A stretch of DNA of 40,204 nt, from the NCBI GenBank assembly GCA_003022865.1, contig PXSK01000017.1, forward strand, positions 1 to 40,204, written 5' to 3'. This stretch comes from Halobacteriales archaeon SW_5_70_135 (GTDB lineage Archaea; Halobacteriota; Halobacteria; Halobacteriales; SW-7-71-33). The notes below the pieces were generated by a model, which made no database searches, was not told where the DNA came from, and saw nothing but the letters and a program-made list of their open reading frames with translations. The number at the start of each line of letters is the position of its first letter. The stretch's first letter is position 1. Positions 2,871 through 11,516 of the stretch are shown here, one piece after another. The translations under genes and the position numbers were made by a program.

Positions 2871-2930
2871 GAGCGGCGACGCCGACTCGGAACGAGACGA
2901 CCCGTCGGTGTGCGGCCTCGCGACCGCGGT

Positions 2931-2944
2931 TTAGGCACGCCTAA
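2931..2944. promoter_or_regulatory. Iron box 1 (DtxR/Idr-type operator)
   Basis: Perfect inverted repeat TTAGG-CACG-CCTAA. The TTAGG-N4-CCTAA architecture is the core of DtxR/IdeR-family operators, and haloarchaeal Idr regulators belong to that family. It lies 42-55 bases before the GT75 start and 14 bases upstream of box 2. Regulator identity is inferred. Confidence 0.72.
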
Positions 2945-2957
2945 GACCGCCAGGTAT

Positions 2958-2975
2958 TTTTAGGGCCACCTAAAA
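2958..2975. promoter_or_regulatory. Iron box 2 overlapping the GT75 promoter
   Basis: Perfect inverted repeat TTTTAGG-GCCA-CCTAAAA, 7-base arms with a 4-base spacer, ending 10 bases before the GT75 ATG. It overlaps the only TATA-like sequence (TATTTTTA, 2955-2962), placed correctly for a leaderless transcript. An iron-loaded repressor bound here would block TBP/TFB or polymerase. Confidence 0.78.
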
Positions 2976-2985
2976 CAGGCGGTCG

Positions 2986-4122
2986 ATGAGCGAGGACACC
3001 TGTGTGGTCGCGCCGACGATCCGGAACCCGGCCTTTCTGCGGGAGTACGTCGCGAACGCACGCGAGCACGGCCATGCCGACCGACTGCACGTCTGTCTCG
3101 TCACCGAGGAGTTCCGTGACACGGCGGCGATGCGGTCGATGCTCGAGGACCTGGGCGTTCCCGGGCGGGTGTTCGCGGCGGCGGACCGCCGGGAGTGGTT
3201 CGAGGAGCACGGGCTCGCGGCGTACGCCGACCTCGTGCCGGCGGAGAGTCACGCCCAGACCTCCTTCGGACTGCTGTACATGTGGGCGAACGACTTCGAA
3301 GTCGGCGTCTTCCTCGACGACGACACCCGTCCACATCCGGAGTTCGACTTCTTCGGCGGCCACTACCGGAACCTCGACCGCGACAGACCGGTCGAGACCC
3401 GCAGTTCGGACACGCAGTGGGTGAACGTGCTCGACGGCGTCGCCGACCTCTACCCTCGCGGCTACCCGTACGGCGCGACGGAGGAGACGACCACGCGGGA
3501 GACGGCACCGACCGGCGAGGCCGTCGCTTCGCAGGGGCTGTGGACCGGCGTGCCCGACCTCGACGCGGTGCGGGTCCTCGCCGACGGCGACACGCGGGGG
3601 CGGTCCTCCGTGCGGCTCTCGCGGGCGGACTACGACGACCCGCTGTTCGCGGTGGCGCCGGGGAACTACACGACGGTCTGTTCGATGAACCTCGCCTTCC
3701 GCCGGGAGGTCGTGCCGGCCTTCTACCAGCTGCCGATGGACGACAACCCGTGGGGGGTGGGGCGGTTCGACGACATCTGGAGCGGCGTGTTGCTGAAGCG
3801 GGCCGCCGACGCCGTCGGGCGCACGCTGCTGACGGGGACGCCGCTGTGTGTCCACGAGAAGGCACCGCGGTCGACGTTTGGCGACCTGCGCGCGGAGGCC
3901 CCCGCCCTCGAACTGAACGAACACCTCTGGCGGATCGTCGACGACGCCGGCGAGGACGCCGACAGCTTCCGCGAGGTCACCCGCGCGACCGCCGAAGCGC
4001 TCCGTCGCGCGGAGCCGGGCCTCGACAACGACGACTTCCTGCCGTACGTCGCCGACCGTCTCGACCGCTGGCTCGACTGTCTCGCGGCGCTCGACCGCGA
4101 CCGCGTCCCCGCCGACGACTGA
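2986..4122 (+). CDS. GT75-family protein (UDP-arabinopyranose mutase / reversibly glycosylated polypeptide-like)
   Basis: 378-residue soluble GT-A-type protein matching plant RGP/UDP-arabinopyranose mutases, which interconvert UDP-arabinopyranose and UDP-arabinofuranose and self-glycosylate on arginine. Landmarks: the DDD nucleotide-sugar/metal triad at residues 111-113 (VFLDDDTRP), RGYP with Arg158 where the plant enzymes carry the glycosylated arginine, SQGLWTGVPDLDA at 182-194, CSMNLAFRRE at 232-241, RFDDIWSG at 260-267 (plant RYDDMWAG), and CVHEKA at 288-293. The second plant catalytic arginine (Arg165) is replaced here by Thr165, so true mutase activity is uncertain; it might be a glycosyltransferase or use another sugar. 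Two iron boxes sit at its promoter and the ferric transporter genes follow. Family assignment is strong, substrate unknown. Confidence 0.8.
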   Translation: MSEDTCVVAPTIRNPAFLREYVANAREHGHADRLHVCLVTEEFRDTAAMRSMLEDLGVPGRVFAAADRREWFEEHGLAAYADLVPAESHAQTSFGLLYMWANDFEVGVFLDDDTRPHPEFDFFGGHYRNLDRDRPVETRSSDTQWVNVLDGVADLYPRGYPYGATEETTTRETAPTGEAVASQGLWTGVPDLDAVRVLADGDTRGRSSVRLSRADYDDPLFAVAPGNYTTVCSMNLAFRREVVPAFYQLPMDDNPWGVGRFDDIWSGVLLKRAADAVGRTLLTGTPLCVHEKAPRSTFGDLRAEAPALELNEHLWRIVDDAGEDADSFREVTRATAEALRRAEPGLDNDDFLPYVADRLDRWLDCLAALDRDRVPADD

Positions 4123-4150
4123 GACGAGACCACTTCGGAACCACTAAGTG

Positions 4151-4168
4151 TTTTAGGCTGACCTAAAA
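4151..4168. promoter_or_regulatory. Iron box 3 at the ferric transporter start
   Basis: Perfect inverted repeat TTTTAGG-CTGA-CCTAAAA, the same 7-4-7 architecture and identical arms as box 2, ending 4 bases before the ATG of the iron-binding protein gene. This overlaps the expected start of a leaderless transcript. Its association with an iron transporter is the strongest support for reading all three boxes as iron-responsive. Confidence 0.8.
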
Positions 4169-4172
4169 GCGT

Positions 4173-5285
4173 ATGAGCGACTGGAGCCGGCGACGGTTCG
4201 TCGTATCGACGGGGGCGGTCGGGCTGACCGGACTGACCGGCTGTCTCGGCGGAGACGACGGCGACGGCGACGGCGGCGACGAACCGGGACAGGTCGGCTC
4301 CGGACGGCTGGGGCGCGACCCGCCCGGCGGGACGCCGATCGCGGACCTGCCCGACCTCTCGGGGGAGATCGACCTCTACTCCGGCCGCGGGCAGCCGCTG
4401 GTGGGCGAGCTGATCGACTTCCTCGACTCGGCGTACCCCGACCTGACGATCACCCCGCGGTACGACAGCGCGAACAACCTGCTCGGGCGCCTGGACAACG
4501 AGGGCGACAACAGCCCGGCGGACGTGTTCTTCACGGTCAACGCCGGCGCCCTGGGGGCACTGAACGACCGCGGACGCGCACTCGAACTCGGTGACGAGGT
4601 GCTCTCGATGGCCCGCGAGCGGTTCCGCGCGCCCGACGGCCGCTGGGTCGGCACCTCCGGTCGGGTGCGGACGGTGCCGTACGATACCGAGACGCTCGAT
4701 GGGGTGCCCGAGGACGTCTTCGCGTACCCCGACGACGAGCGCTTCCAGGACGCGGTGGGCTGGGCGCCGACGTACTCCTCGTTTCAGGCGTTCGTCACCG
4801 CGATGCGCGTCCTGAACGGCCGCGACCGCACCCGGGGGTGGCTGGAGGGGATGATAGCGCAGGGCGCCGAGGAGTACAACGACGAGTTCCTCGTCGCGCA
4901 GGCGGTCGCCGACGGCGACCTCGTGGCGGGGTTCACGAACCACTACTACGTCCAGCGGGTGATCGAGGCTCGAGACGACCCGCCGATAGCGACGGGCAAC
5001 ACGACGAACGACGCCGGCTCCGTCTTCAACGTCGCCGGCGCGGCCGTCGTCGACACCGCCTCCGACCCCGACACCGCCCGGACGTTCGTCCGTCACCTGC
5101 TGTCGGCGGAGGCCCAGGAGTACTTCGTCGTCTCGCGCACCTTCGAGTACCCCGCCATCCCGGAGGTGGACCCGCTCGACCGGCTCCCCTCGCTGGAGGA
5201 GTTGGACCCGCCGGACGTCGACCTCACCCGCTTGTCGAACTTGGAGCCGACGATCGACTTACTTAGGGACGTGGGGCTGCTGTAG
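4173..5285 (+). CDS. Ferric iron ABC transporter substrate-binding lipoprotein (FbpA-like)
   Basis: Extracytoplasmic solute-binding protein of the FbpA/transferrin-like class, 370 residues, delivering Fe(III) to the permease encoded next. The N-terminus has a twin-arginine signal (SRRRFV) followed by a lipobox-like LTGCLGG, so it is probably Tat-exported and lipid-anchored on the outer face. An Asp/Gly-rich linker follows, then the binding fold starting EIDLYSGRG. The consecutive tyrosines Y258-Y259 (NHYYVQR) match the tyrosine pair that coordinates iron in FbpA proteins. First gene of an apparent fbpABC-type operon directly behind iron box 3; 13 bases separate it from the permease gene. The iron substrate is inferred from family, tyrosine pair and operator. 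Confidence 0.9.
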   Translation: MSDWSRRRFVVSTGAVGLTGLTGCLGGDDGDGDGGDEPGQVGSGRLGRDPPGGTPIADLPDLSGEIDLYSGRGQPLVGELIDFLDSAYPDLTITPRYDSANNLLGRLDNEGDNSPADVFFTVNAGALGALNDRGRALELGDEVLSMARERFRAPDGRWVGTSGRVRTVPYDTETLDGVPEDVFAYPDDERFQDAVGWAPTYSSFQAFVTAMRVLNGRDRTRGWLEGMIAQGAEEYNDEFLVAQAVADGDLVAGFTNHYYVQRVIEARDDPPIATGNTTNDAGSVFNVAGAAVVDTASDPDTARTFVRHLLSAEAQEYFVVSRTFEYPAIPEVDPLDRLPSLEELDPPDVDLTRLSNLEPTIDLLRDVGLL

Positions 5286-5298
5286 CCGGACACGCCAC

Positions 5299-6993
5299 AT
5301 GGCGACGGACACGACGACCGGACCGACGACCGCCCCCGGGGAGCGCGAGCGACCGGCGACCGACGACGCGGACGCCGACGCCGACACCGGCACCGGCACC
5401 GACGTCACCGACGGGAACGCCGACCTCCCCACGAGCGTCGTCCTCGCCGCCGGTGCCGTCGCCGCCGCCGTCCTGTTGCCGCTGTTGTGGCTGCTGGTCG
5501 CCGGCCTCGACGCCGGTGTCGAGGGCCTACGGGCGACGGTCCGGCCGACCGCCGTCCGGGTGATGGGCAACAGTCTCGTGCTCGTCACACTCGTCACCGC
5601 GTGTTCGACGGCGATCGGCGTGCCGCTGGCCTACCTCGTCGTCCGCACGGACCTCCCGCTGCGGCGCTTTTTCACCGTCGCCGCCGCCCTGCCGCTCGTC
5701 GTGCCCTCCTACATCGGTGCCTTCGCCTTCGTCTCGGCGTTCGGCCGCTCGGGCGACCTCAACGGCGCGCTCGTCGGACTCGGACTCGGACTCCCTCGCG
5801 TCCCCGAGGTCGCCGGCCTGGAGGGGACGACGCTCGTGCTCACGCTGTACACCTACCCGTACGTCTTTCTCACCGCCCGCGCCGCGCTCGTCTCGATGGA
5901 CGACTCTCTCGTCGAGGCCGCCCGCACGCTCGGTCACGGCCGCCTGGCGGCGTTTCGCCGGGTGACCGCCCCGCGGATCCGTCCCGCCGTCGGCGCCGGT
6001 GCTCTGCTCGTCGCGCTGTACGCCCTCTCCGATTTCGGTACGCCCGCGATCCTCCGGTACGACGTCTACACCCGGGTGATCTTCGTCGAGCAGCGCGCCT
6101 TCAACACCGACCTCGCCGCGGTCCTCTCGATCCAGCTGGTCGTGGTGACGGCCGTCGTGCTCGCGGTCGAGTCCCGGCTGCGCGGCGACGCGCCGGTCCA
6201 CTCGACGGGCGGTCGCTCGACCGACCGCGTTCGACTGGGCCGCTGGCGCTGGGTCGCCGCGCTGCTGCCGACCGCCGTCGCCCTCGTCGCGCTGGCCGTG
6301 CCGCTGGCGGTGCTGGTGCTGTGGCTGCTCCGCGACGCCGCCAGCACCGGTGCGGCGCTCGCTTTCCAGCCCTCCTACGCGGTCAACTCCGTGGCCGTCG
6401 CCGGCGGGGCCGCCCTGCTCACCGCGGCGCTCGGCCTGCCGGTGGCCTACGTCGCCGCCCGTGGCGACTCCCGCCTGGCCGGGCTGGTCGAGCGGGCCAC
6501 CTGGGTCGGCTACGCCGTGCCCGGCGTCGTGCTCGGCCTGGCGCTGGTCTACTTCGGCGCCCGCTACGGCGGCGGACTCTACCGGCAGGGGCTCGTTCTG
6601 CTGCCGCTTCTGGTGTTCGCCTACGTCGTCCGCTTCCTCCCGCAGGCCGTCGGCGCCACCCGCGCCTCCGTCCTCGGGGTCGACCCGCGACTGCCGGAGG
6701 CCGCCCGCTCGCTCGGCGCCGACCGCGGCCGGTCGTTCCGCCGGGTGGTCCTCCCGCTGGTGGCGCCCGGCCTGATCGCCGGCGCCGCGCTGGTCTTTCT
6801 GACGACGATGAAGGAACTGCCCGCGACGTTACTGCTGCGACCCGCCGGCTTCAGCACGCTGGCGACACACATCTGGAGCGTGCAGGACCAGGGCTACTTC
6901 GGCTACGCCGCCGTCCCCGCGCTGATCCTGCTCGGCGTCTCCGCGCTGTCGATGTACGTCCTCGTCCGCACGGAGGGTGGCAATGTCAGGTGA
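5299..6993 (+). CDS. Ferric iron ABC transporter permease (fused two-domain, FbpB-like)
   Basis: Integral membrane permease of 564 residues containing two tandem binding-protein-dependent permease domains, as in FbpB/SfuB. Each half carries its own EAA loop for docking the ATPase: EAARTLGHGRLAAFRRV in the first and EAARSLGADRGRSFRRV in the second. About twelve hydrophobic segments are readable. The N-terminal 40 or so residues are a polar Asp/Thr-rich cytoplasmic extension. It imports Fe(III) released by the lipoprotein encoded upstream and is powered by the ATPase encoded downstream, whose start lies inside its 3' end, indicating translational coupling. Confidence 0.92.
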   Translation: MATDTTTGPTTAPGERERPATDDADADADTGTGTDVTDGNADLPTSVVLAAGAVAAAVLLPLLWLLVAGLDAGVEGLRATVRPTAVRVMGNSLVLVTLVTACSTAIGVPLAYLVVRTDLPLRRFFTVAAALPLVVPSYIGAFAFVSAFGRSGDLNGALVGLGLGLPRVPEVAGLEGTTLVLTLYTYPYVFLTARAALVSMDDSLVEAARTLGHGRLAAFRRVTAPRIRPAVGAGALLVALYALSDFGTPAILRYDVYTRVIFVEQRAFNTDLAAVLSIQLVVVTAVVLAVESRLRGDAPVHSTGGRSTDRVRLGRWRWVAALLPTAVALVALAVPLAVLVLWLLRDAASTGAALAFQPSYAVNSVAVAGGAALLTAALGLPVAYVAARGDSRLAGLVERATWVGYAVPGVVLGLALVYFGARYGGGLYRQGLVLLPLLVFAYVVRFLPQAVGATRASVLGVDPRLPEAARSLGADRGRSFRRVVLPLVAPGLIAGAALVFLTTMKELPATLLLRPAGFSTLATHIWSVQDQGYFGYAAVPALILLGVSALSMYVLVRTEGGNVR

Positions 6994-8272
6994 CGACTCC
7001 CGCGACCCCGAGCCGGACGGCGGCACCGCCACGGCCGCCGACACCGGCGCCGGCGCCGACGGCGATGTCCCCGACCCGGCCGACCGGACGGAGCCGTACC
7101 CCCACGGCTGGGCGCGCCCCTCCGCCGCGGAGGGCGAGGTGGCGCTGTCGCTGTCGGGCGTCACCAAGCGCTTCGGCGCGACGCCGGCGGCCGAGGACCT
7201 CTCGCTGTCGGTGTACGAGGGCGAACTGCTCACCGTCGTCGGCCCCTCCGGCTGCGGGAAGACGACGACGCTACGGCTGATCGCCGGGCTGGAGCGACCC
7301 GACGCCGGCATAGTCCGCGTCGGCGGCGAGGTCGTCGCCGGCGACGGGGGGTTCGTCCCCGCCGAGGAGCGCGACGTCGGCGTCGTCTTCCAGGAGTTCG
7401 CGCTGTTTCCCCACATGACGACGGCCGAGAACGTCGGCTTCGGCCTCGACGACCGCCCGCAGGCCGAGCGCGAGCGGCGCGTCGAGGAGCTGCTCGACCT
7501 GGTCGGTCTGTCGGCCGAGCGGGACGCCTACCCGGACGAGCTCTCCGGCGGCCAGCAGCAGCGGGTCGCACTGGCCCGCTCGCTGGCGCCCGAACCCGAG
7601 GTGTTGCTGCTCGACGAGCCGTTCGCCAACCTCGACGTGGACCTGCGCGAGCGGATGCGCGAGGAGGTGCGGGCCATCCTGCGGGAGGCCGGCGTCACGG
7701 CCGTCTCCGTCACCCACGACCAGGAGGAGGCGCTGTCGATCGGCGACCGCGTCGCCGTCATGCACGACGGCGGCCTGGAGCAGGTGGGTCGCCCGGAGCG
7801 GGTGTTCCAGCATCCCGAGTCGCGGTTCGTCGCCGGCTTCCTCGGGCACGCCTCCTTCGTGCCGGGCAGCGTCACCGGCGAGGCCGTCGAGACCGCCATC
7901 GGCGGCGTCTCGGCCGACCGCGTCTACGGGCTCGGCCCCGAGTACGAGTGGTCCACGGTCGACCTCCTAGTGCGACCCGACGACCTCGCCGCCCGTCCGG
8001 CCCCCGAGGGCGACGCCGACGGCCGCGTCGTCGGCCGCCAGTTCCTCGGTGCCACCGTGAAGTACCGCGTCGAACTCGACGACGACGGCGTCGTCGAGTG
8101 TGCCCACAACCACACCGAGCACATAGAGCGCGGCGCCCCCGTCTCCGTAGACTTCGTCGCCGACCACGACCTCGCCTGGTTCCCGCGGTCCCGACCCGGT
8201 GCCGACGGCGGCGACAGCCCGGCGGTGGACGGCGCCAGGCCGGAACGCGACGACGGCCACGATGCCGGCTGA
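6983..8272 (+). CDS. Ferric iron ABC transporter ATP-binding protein (FbpC/PotA-like)
   Basis: ABC ATPase energising the ferric importer. Walker A is GPSGCGKTT near residue 87, the signature LSGGQQQRVALARSL begins near residue 187, and Walker B VLLLDEPFANLD begins near residue 207, followed by the switch histidine region SVTHDQEEAL. The C-terminal third resembles the TOBE/OB-type regulatory domain of the FbpC/PotA group. The first 50 residues are a low-complexity acidic leader. I chose ATG 6983, which overlaps the permease stop by 11 bases; GTG 6977 is an alternative. The stop overlaps the ATG of the GT-C gene (8262), so at least four genes appear translationally linked. Confidence 0.93.
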   Translation: MSGDDSRDPEPDGGTATAADTGAGADGDVPDPADRTEPYPHGWARPSAAEGEVALSLSGVTKRFGATPAAEDLSLSVYEGELLTVVGPSGCGKTTTLRLIAGLERPDAGIVRVGGEVVAGDGGFVPAEERDVGVVFQEFALFPHMTTAENVGFGLDDRPQAERERRVEELLDLVGLSAERDAYPDELSGGQQQRVALARSLAPEPEVLLLDEPFANLDVDLRERMREEVRAILREAGVTAVSVTHDQEEALSIGDRVAVMHDGGLEQVGRPERVFQHPESRFVAGFLGHASFVPGSVTGEAVETAIGGVSADRVYGLGPEYEWSTVDLLVRPDDLAARPAPEGDADGRVVGRQFLGATVKYRVELDDDGVVECAHNHTEHIERGAPVSVDFVADHDLAWFPRSRPGADGGDSPAVDGARPERDDGHDAG

Positions 8273-11200
8273 GTCCGCGCCCGGTCCTCGCCTTCGACGG
8301 CTCCATCGGAGAGCGACCCCGCGGGCGGCGGCCGCCCTGCTCGCGCTCGGAGCCGGCGCCGTCGTCCTCTGGCTCGCCGTCGACCTGTTCCCGTACGGCT
8401 CGGTGAACCACGACGAGGGCGTCTACCGCCAGCAGGCCGACCTGCTTTTGTCCGGGCGCCCAGACATGACTCCCCGGGAGCCGGGCGCCGTCCGACCGTG
8501 GTTCTTCGTGCGCGACGGCGGCCGTCTCTACCCGCGGTACGCCCCCGTCACCGCGGCGGTGTTCGCACTCGGTGACCTGGCCGGGAGCGCCCGGCTCGCG
8601 CTCGCGGCCGTCGCCGCCGGCAACGTCGGGCTCACGTACGCGCTGGCGTCGGCCGCCTACGACCGCCGGGTGGGGCTGCTCGCGGCGGGGCTGCTCGGCG
8701 CCACGCCGGCGTTCCTGTTCACCGCCGCCGTCTTCCTGCCGTACGCGCCGGCGACGCTGCTGAATCTCGCCTTCGCCGTCGCCTATGTCCGCTCCGTGCG
8801 CCGCGACGGGCGGGCGGCCGTCGCTTGGGGTGTCGTCGCCGGCGTCGCCGTCGGCCTCGCCGGCTTCGCCCGCCCGTACACGGCGGTGCTGTTCGCCGTG
8901 CCGTTCGTCCTCCACGCCGCCTGGCGGCTCGTCCGCGCCGGCCGCCGGGCGTCGCGCGCCGACCGGTCGACCGCGACGCCCGGCCCCGACCCGCCGACGA
9001 CCGTCGCCCGGCTGACGGCCGTCGCGGTGCCCGCGCTCGCGCTCGTCGGCGTCGCGCTGTGGTACAACGCTCTCGTGACGGGGTCGGCGTGGCGGTTTCC
9101 GTTCGAGGCCTTCGCCCCCCGGGACGGGCTGGGCTTCGGTCGGCGTCGCGTCCTCGATCACGCCGTCGACTACACGCCCCGGCTGGCGCTGCGCTCCACG
9201 GCGGTCCTGCTGTGGGAACTCGGCACGCGCTGGACCGTCGCGCCGCCGCTGGGCACGCTCGTCGCCGTCGCCGGCGCCGGGCAGTTCCTGCTCGGCCGCG
9301 ACGACGGCGTCCGCGACCGCCTCGCCGTCGAGCGTCCGGACGGCGCCGGCGTCCGCCTGCTGCTCGTCGGCGTCGCCGTCTCGGTCGTCGTCGGCAACGG
9401 CTACTTCTGGGGGACGTACAACGTCCTCGGCGACCTCGGCGACCCGACCAACGGCTTCGTCGCCGCCTTCGGCCCGTTCTACCACTTCGACCTGCTGCCC
9501 GTGCTGGCGACGTTCGGCGCCGCCGGTACGCTCGCCGGCTGGCGGTGGCTCCGGGCTCGCGTCCCCGCGACGCCGGTCCCGCGTCGGGCGGCACTCGGGG
9601 CTGTCCTCGCGGGCGCGGTCGTCGCCGGCGGCGCGGCACAGGCGGTCGCGCTGGCGGGTCCGTACGCCGACCACGCCGCCTACACCGACCGCTACGAGCA
9701 GACCTACGAGCCCCTCGACCGGGAGTTCGACGACGCCGTCGTGTTCGTCCCCTCGACGTACGGCCCCTGGCTCAACCACCCCTTCCAGTCGCTGCGCAAC
9801 CGGGCGGGGGCGGACGGCCGACTGACCGGCGACGCCGTGTACGCCCGCGACCGCGGCCCGGCGGGCGATTTCGCCGTCCTCGACGCCCACGACCGCCGGC
9901 CGTACCGGTTCACCTACCGCGGCGAGTGGACGCCCGACCCCGCGGACCGCGTCGAGCCGCGGCTGGTGCCGCTGTCGACCCGTGCCGGTGCTGCGGTCAC
10001 GGTAACGACGACCGTCGCCGTGCCCGAGCGGGCCGACGCCGTCACCGCGCGGCTGACCGTCGACGGCGAGAGCGCCGCTCGGACAGTGAGCCTTGCCGAG
10101 GCGGCTCCCGACGAGGTGACTCTCGTTTGGCGGCTCTCCGCCGAGGACGACCGGGCACGGATCGTCGCCGTCCGGGCCGGCGACCGGCGTGTCGAGATAC
10201 CGGGAGCGCTCGCACTCGACGGCCCCCGTGAGGTCGCGGCGACGCTCACGTTCTCGACGACGGGCGGCTCGACGCTCGCCTACCGGGAGGAACTGGACGC
10301 CCGCCCGCTCGGGGACGACGTGCAGGTGCTCTGGCCGCCCGAACGGTCGGTCTGTCCGCTCGTCACCGACTGCGGGCTGACGGGGACGTACCTCCCCGAC
10401 AGGCCCGACCCGCGGCTGCCCGGCACGGCGATGCCCACCCACGTCGACCCGGTCGCGGAACGCCGCCAGGGCGTCGAGACCGCCGCACGTCGTCCCGGTC
10501 CGTCGTCACGGCTCGGGCGTCCTGCCGACGAGCCCCTTCAGTCGGGTGGCAGTCCGTCACAGGAGCCAGCGCAGGCGTTCCTCGGCACAGACTTTCGCGA
10601 CGGAGTAGCCGATGGCCGCGCCGCCGGCGAGCGGGTCGAGCGTGGTCTCGCCGGCGCGCTCGCGGTACTCGATCGGCGTCTCGACGACGCGGTAGCCACG
10701 CATCGCCGGGCGCAACAGCAGTTCCGCCGAGAGGCCGGTGTTCTCCGTCCAGTCGATCGACTCGATCACCTCCCGGTGATAGGCGCGCATCCCGGTCGTC
10801 ACGTCGTGGACGCGGGTGCCGAGCAGCGCCGAGGCGCCCAGCGCGAACAGACCGTTGCCCAGGCGGTTGAGCCGCGGCATCGCCTCGGCGCCGTGATACA
10901 GTCGGTCACAGGAGACGACGTCGGCACCGTCGTTCACCAGTTCGAGCAGTCGGGGCAGCGCCTCCATCGGGTAGGTGTCGTCGCAGTCGCTGGTGACGAC
11001 GACGGGTCGCTCGGCCTCGCACAGCCCGCGGGCGACGGCGACGCCGTACCCCTGTGGCGCCTGCTCGACGACGGTGGCGCCGTGCTCGCGAGCGATCTCC
11101 GGGGTGCGGTCGCTCGACCCGTCGACGCAGACGACTCGCGCTCGGCCGTCGGTAACGCGGTCGACGTCCTCCAGAACGGTCCCGATCGCCGCCGCCTCGT

Positions 11201-11516
11201 CGTACGTACCCATGACGACGGTGACGTCGTCGAAGTCGAAGTCGGACGGTTCGACCCCGTCGGTCGACGACCGCGACCCGTCGGCGGCGTCGGTTCCCGT
11301 CCCCTCGTCGCCGGTCTCTGTCATGCCGGAGGCGAGGCGGGTCGACTACTTGTCGGCCGCGATCGACACCGACCGGCGGTCGGCGGTGTCCGCGAGACTC
11401 GCGGCGGCGGTCGCTCGCGGCACCGAGTCGTGCCAGCGTGGTGTCAGGGCAGCGAGTGGAGGAAGGTCTGCACCTCCACGGTCCGGCCGTCGGGGTCGTC
11501 GGCGAAGAACTGGTAG
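8262..11516 (+). CDS. GT-C membrane glycosyltransferase (PMT/ArnT-like), ORF with apparently lost stop codon
   Basis: Polytopic membrane protein with a GT-C signature: one N-terminal hydrophobic span, then VNHDEGVYRQQADLLLSG with the acidic pair D51-E52 in the first external loop, as in PMT/ArnT enzymes using polyprenyl-phosphate sugars, then about ten hydrophobic segments to roughly residue 480 and a soluble beta-rich C-terminal domain. ATG 8262 overlaps the iron ATPase stop (8272), suggesting membership of the same iron-controlled operon. Codon bias and protein-like composition end around base 10490 (about residue 743), but no in-frame stop occurs until 11516. The last 320 or so residues would be antisense to the convergent GT2 gene and look like non-coding translation. 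I read the true product as ending near 10490, with the stop lost by mutation or sequence error. Confidence 0.72.
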   Translation: MPAESAPGPRLRRLHRRATPRAAAALLALGAGAVVLWLAVDLFPYGSVNHDEGVYRQQADLLLSGRPDMTPREPGAVRPWFFVRDGGRLYPRYAPVTAAVFALGDLAGSARLALAAVAAGNVGLTYALASAAYDRRVGLLAAGLLGATPAFLFTAAVFLPYAPATLLNLAFAVAYVRSVRRDGRAAVAWGVVAGVAVGLAGFARPYTAVLFAVPFVLHAAWRLVRAGRRASRADRSTATPGPDPPTTVARLTAVAVPALALVGVALWYNALVTGSAWRFPFEAFAPRDGLGFGRRRVLDHAVDYTPRLALRSTAVLLWELGTRWTVAPPLGTLVAVAGAGQFLLGRDDGVRDRLAVERPDGAGVRLLLVGVAVSVVVGNGYFWGTYNVLGDLGDPTNGFVAAFGPFYHFDLLPVLATFGAAGTLAGWRWLRARVPATPVPRRAALGAVLAGAVVAGGAAQAVALAGPYADHAAYTDRYEQTYEPLDREFDDAVVFVPSTYGPWLNHPFQSLRNRAGADGRLTGDAVYARDRGPAGDFAVLDAHDRRPYRFTYRGEWTPDPADRVEPRLVPLSTRAGAAVTVTTTVAVPERADAVTARLTVDGESAARTVSLAEAAPDEVTLVWRLSAEDDRARIVAVRAGDRRVEIPGALALDGPREVAATLTFSTTGGSTLAYREELDARPLGDDVQVLWPPERSVCPLVTDCGLTGTYLPDRPDPRLPGTAMPTHVDPVAERRQGVETAARRPGPSSRLGRPADEPLQSGGSPSQEPAQAFLGTDFRDGVADGRAAGERVERGLAGALAVLDRRLDDAVATHRRAQQQFRREAGVLRPVDRLDHLPVIGAHPGRHVVDAGAEQRRGAQREQTVAQAVEPRHRLGAVIQSVTGDDVGTVVHQFEQSGQRLHRVGVVAVAGDDDGSLGLAQPAGDGDAVPLWRLLDDGGAVLASDLRGAVARPVDADDSRSAVGNAVDVLQNGPDRRRLVVRTHDDGDVVEVEVGRFDPVGRRPRPVGGVGSRPLVAGLCHAGGEAGRLLVGRDRHRPAVGGVRETRGGGRSRHRVVPAWCQGSEWRKVCTSTVRPSGSSAKNW
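10557..11324 (-). CDS. Family 2 glycosyltransferase, dolichyl-phosphate sugar synthase-like (DPM1 type)
   Basis: 255-residue GT-A enzyme that should transfer a sugar from a nucleotide donor to dolichyl phosphate on the cytoplasmic face. After about 30 acidic, disordered residues the fold begins VTVVMGTYDEAAAI, followed by VVCVDGSSDRTPEIA, the donor-binding VVTSDCDDTYP (DxD-type triad), and the acceptor-side HDVTTGMRAYHREV and GYRVVETPIEYRERAGET, all typical of DPM1/AglJ-like proteins. There is no C-terminal membrane segment. It is convergent with the GT-C gene, whose open frame runs through it on the other strand. Together they could make and use a lipid-linked sugar; the specific sugar is unknown. 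Confidence 0.88.
   Translation of the reverse strand: MTETGDEGTGTDAADGSRSSTDGVEPSDFDFDDVTVVMGTYDEAAAIGTVLEDVDRVTDGRARVVCVDGSSDRTPEIAREHGATVVEQAPQGYGVAVARGLCEAERPVVVTSDCDDTYPMEALPRLLELVNDGADVVSCDRLYHGAEAMPRLNRLGNGLFALGASALLGTRVHDVTTGMRAYHREVIESIDWTENTGLSAELLLRPAMRGYRVVETPIEYRERAGETTLDPLAGGAAIGYSVAKVCAEERLRWLL

Follow-up and report, generated by a model that had tools for sequence, protein, structure and literature searches.

Why would a gene of the GT75 (RGP) family, whose members make sugar nucleotides in plants, stand behind palindromes of the kind that govern iron uptake, immediately before the genes of a ferric transporter? The question is raised by the window, by which we mean the whole 40,204-base stretch of haloarchaeal DNA analysed here. 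As described below, sequence comparisons strongly support membership of the locus in the haloarchaeal DtxR-type iron regulon. They also place GT75 as one of three enzymes, the other two of which, GT-C and GT2, were absent from the preliminary description of this DNA. Neither the regulon nor any of the enzyme families is of a new kind; what is new, judged by the literature searched, is that the regulon includes a conserved glycan module.

Iron boxes in the window and across genomes

The window contains exactly three copies of the core TTAGG-N4-CCTAA (2931-2944, 2960-2973 and 4153-4166), and 100 dinucleotide shuffles of it contain none. When the whole window is searched with the pattern TTTAGGN4CCTAAA, allowing up to two mismatches, the same three sites are returned and no others. 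Two of them precede the GT75 start codon (ATG at 2986): box 1 (TTTAGGCACGCCTAAG, 2930..2945), which has one mismatch to the pattern and lies about 56 bp before the ATG, and box 2 (TTTAGGGCCACCTAAA, 2959..2974), about 27 bp before it. Box 3 (TTTAGGCTGACCTAAA, 4152..4167) is found just before fbpA, the gene of the iron-binding protein (ATG at 4173). No strand is assigned to the boxes. Boxes 2 and 3 extend to TTTTAGG-N4-CCTAAAA, and box 1 reads TTTAGG-N4-CCTAAG. Both the placement of the identical-core palindromes, with two at the GT75 promoter and one at the start of the iron-binding protein, and the extension of two of the three were already given in the preliminary description, and both are confirmed. 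The shuffles, together with the backwards and reversed-pattern controls and the conservation across loci reported below, rule out chance palindromes.

The whole assembly of this genome (1.77 Mb, 63% complete) contains five core sites, that is, the three of the window and two more, and the backwards control finds none. Three other haloarchaeal genomes have 4, 12 and 13 copies of the 16-bp box TTTAGGN4CCTAAA, again with no match to the backwards control. Most genes beside the box in these three genomes, identified by their own sequence and by scans of relatives, encode siderophore-type binding proteins, FecCD-type permeases, a Dps/ferritin-like protein, a diaminobutyrate-aminotransferase-like protein or an FbpC-type ATPase, or are the GT75-fbpA pair and GT2 itself. 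A minority of neighbours are not obviously iron-related, for example a glutamine-synthetase-like gene and a lipoate-ligase-like gene. Since the targets in the three genomes are mostly genes of siderophore synthesis and of iron uptake and storage, we can rule out a motif unrelated to iron. The genome-wide scan had been proposed with a view to whether the motif is frequent and indifferent to iron genes; it is rare, and it lies mostly before them.

Published DtxR-family iron regulators of haloarchaea include Idr, SirR and TroR (PMC11349517), and the present genome carries two genes of the family (Fe_dep_repr_C, contig C12). The iron regulon of these regulators in Haloferax volcanii and Halobacterium salinarum resembles what we see here, both in its DtxR-family regulators and in the palindrome that precedes its genes for ferric and siderophore uptake. 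The box probably corresponds to the DtxR/TroR-type operator already known from haloarchaea. The rarity of the palindrome, its iron-gene targets and the two DtxR genes support the earlier suggestion of a DtxR/IdeR-type architecture with one site fronting an iron transporter.

It might be argued that the boxes answer to manganese or another metal instead, GT75 being in need of Mn2+. Manganese sensors do exist among DtxR-family proteins, and MtdL, a bacterial GT75 protein, binds Mn2+ (PMC9937993). The targets named above for the three genomes, from siderophore-type binding proteins, FecCD permeases and the diaminobutyrate aminotransferase to Dps and ferric transporters, speak against a manganese response, and we consider it highly improbable.

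The ferric importer

Box 3 is followed on the + strand by a gene (4173..5285) for an FbpA-type ferric-binding protein of 370 aa, whose signal peptide has a Tat-like RRRF and a possible lipobox, LTGC. Its best relatives in the PDB are Fe3+-binding proteins, among them 7w3w (7.8e-52) and TtFbpA of Thermus (4elo, 1.9e-40). The Tyr-Tyr of its TNHYYVQR stretch aligns with the iron-ligand region of ferric-binding structures; in this family such a pair binds iron. There follow, also on the + strand, an FbpB-type double permease (5299..6993), matched by Pfam BPD_transp_1 in two stretches, and an FbpC-type ATPase with a TOBE_2 domain (6977..8272, start at 6977 or 6983; Pfam ABC_tran 121.7 bits). The NCBIfam names of thiamine, phosphonate or polyamine transporter all score under their cut-offs, and such a function is ruled out by the ferric-binding match of 7.8e-52. 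With a ferric-type binding protein, a double permease and an FbpC-type ATPase, FbpABC has the make-up of a ferric importer, and the earlier identification holds.

A probable NDP-pyranose mutase

Boxes 1 and 2 front a gene (2986..4122, + strand) for a GT75/RGP-family protein of 378 aa. It scores 45.2 bits against Pfam RGP (cut-off 23.8) and matches MtdL among PDB sequences at 6.7e-22; with its predicted structure (pLDDT 83.9), Foldseek returns MtdL first (E 1e-23, TM 0.8) and rice UAM2 next. The residues proposed for mutase chemistry in MtdL are Arg159, Asp195, Arg257, Asp260, the DDD motif and His287 (PMC9937993). These correspond to R158, D191, R260, D263, D111-113 and H290, which are invariant in 34 GT75 sequences; that is, the acceptor Arg, the general base Asp, the DXD and the metal-binding His are all found. 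Pfam, PDB sequence, fold and catalytic residues therefore agree on the GT75 membership first assigned to this gene, and sequence and model together point to a probable NDP-pyranose mutase.

Where MtdL has the sugar-pocket residues D87 and R90, our protein has H89 and T92, and the positions in contact with base and sugar are a mix of MtdL and plant types. Because the pocket residues differ and the base-contact positions are mixed, the substrate of GT75 cannot be read from its sequence, and arabinose, which the preliminary description had named, is not supported. The bacterial NDP-pyranose mutases MtdL and Hyg20 share the fold and the catalytic Arg, Asp, DDD and His with our protein, but identity is only about 25%, pocket residues 87, 90 and 229 differ, and their context is antibiotic synthesis, whereas GT75 here belongs to an iron operon. 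The plant RGP/UAM proteins (UDP-arabinopyranose mutase) share Pfam RGP and the GRYDD- and HEKA-type motifs, but the fold match is weaker (TM 0.62), and GT75 here has S88, not Asp, at a base-contact position. In the literature searched we found no function for an archaeal GT75.

The altered pocket (D87 to H89, R90 to T92) would also suit a protein that is no pyranose-furanose mutase, for instance a sugar carrier that glycosylates its own arginine, or another glycosyltransferase, in a pathway that would still be iron-controlled; autoglycosylation has in fact been shown by GT75 proteins too (PMC9937993). This we think rather unlikely, given that the residues proposed for mutase chemistry are all invariant and that the fold is that of MtdL.

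Two partner enzymes

Overlapping the fbpC stop, a further + strand gene begins at 8262 (8262..10478). It encodes GT-C, a membrane glycosyltransferase (PMT_2 plus DUF7846) recognised by Pfam (27.2 bits against PMT_2, cut-off 26.1), by its fold and by a conserved NHDEGVY, the Asp-Glu motif of the first external loop. The structural matches of its model (pLDDT 80.7) are AglB/OST, AftA, Pmt4 and ALG12/ALG9; they are distant (TM 0.3-0.4), and all are enzymes that use sugars linked to polyprenyl phosphate or pyrophosphate. The GT-C reading frame (8199-11516) stays open past the end of homology (about 10478) to 11516, across the opposite-strand GT2, which reflects either a long tail, a lost stop or an assembly error.

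GT2 (10557..11324, - strand, convergent to the operon) is a protein of 255 aa that matches the NCBIfam dolichyl-phosphate hexose transferase NF041391 at 379.6 bits (cut-off 375) and PfDPMS, the dolichol-phosphate mannose synthase of Pyrococcus, at 2.1e-14. No box lies near it in this window at up to two mismatches. HVO_1613 of Haloferax and AepG of Haloarcula are of the same kind, being GT2-family enzymes that load sugar onto dolichyl phosphate; AepG differs in using GlcA and in its cluster. Since AepG lies in a different cluster, we do not adopt GlcA as the substrate of GT2.

Conservation of the locus

Scanning public genomes yielded 245 relatives, of which the best 80 were examined with 10-kb flanks; the counts in this paragraph refer to these best 80 of 245. 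All are haloarchaeal where a group is named, two being titled only 'uncultured archaeon' or 'euryarchaeote'. A box (at most one mismatch, at most 150 bp upstream) precedes GT75 in 76 of the 80 loci, mostly starting at -26 to -37, which is the position of box 2 in the window; a few relatives have a second upstream box as well. The reversed pattern was found in 0 of 127 upstream regions. Such tight spacing between box and start suggests a repressor that would block the core promoter. FbpA adjoins GT75 in 71 of the 79 loci with enough sequence, and 56 of these 71 have a box between the two genes. GT-C is near GT75 in 67 of 80 loci and has no box of its own. GT2 falls within the fetched flanks in 47 loci; in 41 of these a separate box precedes it at -28 to -51, often with TTTTGG as the left arm.

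Other genes recur around GT75. In 12-13 Natrinema-type loci the genes directly before it encode an NDP-sugar epimerase and a UPF0104/LPG_synthase_TM membrane protein. Iron starvation of Haloferax volcanii raises a GalE-family epimerase 12.7-fold and a UPF0104 protein 11.6-fold, which puts both among its most increased proteins (PMC11349517); the likeness is one of family name, and we do not assume orthology. In many haloarchaea a GMC oxidoreductase and a gluconate-2-dehydrogenase subunit-3-like protein are encoded nearby, sometimes with an iron box of their own (L048:17059-19223 and similar loci).

Co-inheritance of the three enzymes

Across 59 related genomes the distributions of GT75, GT2 and GT-C are identical: all three are present in 38 and absent from the same 21 (Fisher p 1.4e-9, kinship ignored). 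Nine of the 21 genomes without the module, in seven genera, are at least 95% complete, and for GT2 and GT-C a clean gap separates the orthologues from all other matches. In two genomes GT2 is kept even though it lies far from GT75, so that simple linkage is not the whole reason for the co-occurrence.

The transporter is distributed more widely. FbpA-like proteins are present in all 44 of 44 good genomes, and complete haloarchaea without the glycan module still have a boxed fbpABC, which rules out a requirement of ferric import for GT75. Conversely, the module occurs without fbpABC in two lineages, L059 and L079 (the latter Halocatena marina), whose GT75 boxes have degenerated to 3 and 2 mismatches and whose GT2 has no box left. 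It follows that the module and the transporter can be passed on separately, and that the module's iron control follows the transporter's presence.

The same observations bear on whether the glycan genes are mere passengers of the fbp operon, their product having nothing to do with iron and the boxes serving import only. A boxed fbpABC without the module, the decayed or missing boxes of L059 and L079, and the lack of a separate GT-C box are what one would then expect. Yet a passenger would need no box of its own, and GT75 has one separate from that of fbpA, as does GT2, usually convergent, in 41 of 47 loci (best 80 of 245). We therefore regard a passenger role as unlikely.

Some copies and neighbourhoods depart from the common pattern. 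One haloarchaeal genome (G048) encodes a second GT75 without a box among glycosyltransferase genes (L145:3048-4028, - strand); it is of the plant type and scores 452 bits with Pfam RGP, where the common type reaches 45-70. The GT75 copies of L051 and L076 have no box; apart from iron genes, they lie among GT4, sulfatase and LPG_synthase_TM genes in what look like surface-glycan clusters, a hint of a general glycan function for this type of GT75. In L146 and L147, from complete genomes without the GT75 module, the boxed fbpABC has as its neighbours a different GT2 and asparagine-synthase-like genes, which may be another glycan set in the same place.

A proposed pathway

We think it reasonably likely that the module of GT75, GT2 and GT-C is derepressed together with FbpABC when iron is short, and that it forms an NDP-furanose, charges dolichyl phosphate with a sugar and delivers this to an external acceptor. 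When iron is present, a DtxR-type repressor would occupy the promoters of GT75 and fbpA at their TTTAGGN4CCTAAA boxes; when iron is absent it would leave, allowing transcription of GT75, fbpABC and the overlapping GT-C gene. FbpABC would then import ferric iron, while GT75 would convert an NDP-pyranose to the NDP-furanose through a transient sugar-arginine adduct at R158. GT2 would load dolichyl phosphate with sugar, probably the furanose of GT75, and GT-C would move it from dolichyl phosphate to an acceptor outside the membrane. Of this scheme, the comparisons show the conservation and specificity of the box, the gene order, the strict co-occurrence of the enzymes, and the fold and catalytic residues of GT75; the choice of repressor, the response to iron, the activity as a mutase, the sequence of transfers and the nature of sugar and acceptor are inferred.

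If this pathway operates, iron-short cells probably also remodel a surface sugar. A more specific reading, which we offer as a tentative possibility, is that iron starvation turns on a furanosyl surface-glycan pathway that aids the capture or hand-over of ferric iron, for example through a glycosylated FbpA or an iron-holding surface glycan. In outline, the proposed route resembles the mycobacterial arabinan pathway of decaprenyl-phospho-arabinose and AftA-Emb, where a furanose on polyprenyl phosphate is likewise used by an external GT-C. In mycobacteria, however, DprE1/DprE2 produce the furanose on the lipid, and here an NDP-sugar mutase would produce it; the sequences are unrelated, and we claim no membership in that pathway.

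In the literature searched, the scope of which left out the published TroR regulon (NAR 2024, gkad997), we found no separately boxed, conserved glycan module in an iron regulon. The locus would tie a plant-type sugar mutase to iron starvation across a whole order. If the proposal is true, an iron repressor also controls sugar displayed outside the cell, and three orphan enzymes and the DUF7846 domain acquire a role; if the furanosyl surface-glycan reading is true as well, this would be the first archaeal polyprenyl-phospho-furanose route and the first iron-controlled GT75. Genetically tractable haloarchaea, such as Haloferax volcanii with its RGP-family gene, would allow a test of what these three co-inherited genes produce.

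Other genes beside iron boxes

Several genes elsewhere are also accompanied by the box. A small protein with a conserved '..RxVFTEDGNxDGWI..'-like stretch is encoded beside one both in the present genome (L006:5248, that is, C4:45247) and in Haloarcula (L045:1829), and its gene is found near DUF7547 and Dps genes; it is a likely further conserved member of the regulon. DUF7551/DUF7552-like proteins directly behind iron boxes (L136:11679-12563 and L143:2044-3075) are possible uncharacterised iron-response proteins. Finally, a perfect box in the present genome (L005:2399, that is, C2:2399) lies about 46 bp before an open reading frame that begins MSEDDPASGELFGVPYNF and runs into XTP-pyrophosphatase-like sequence.
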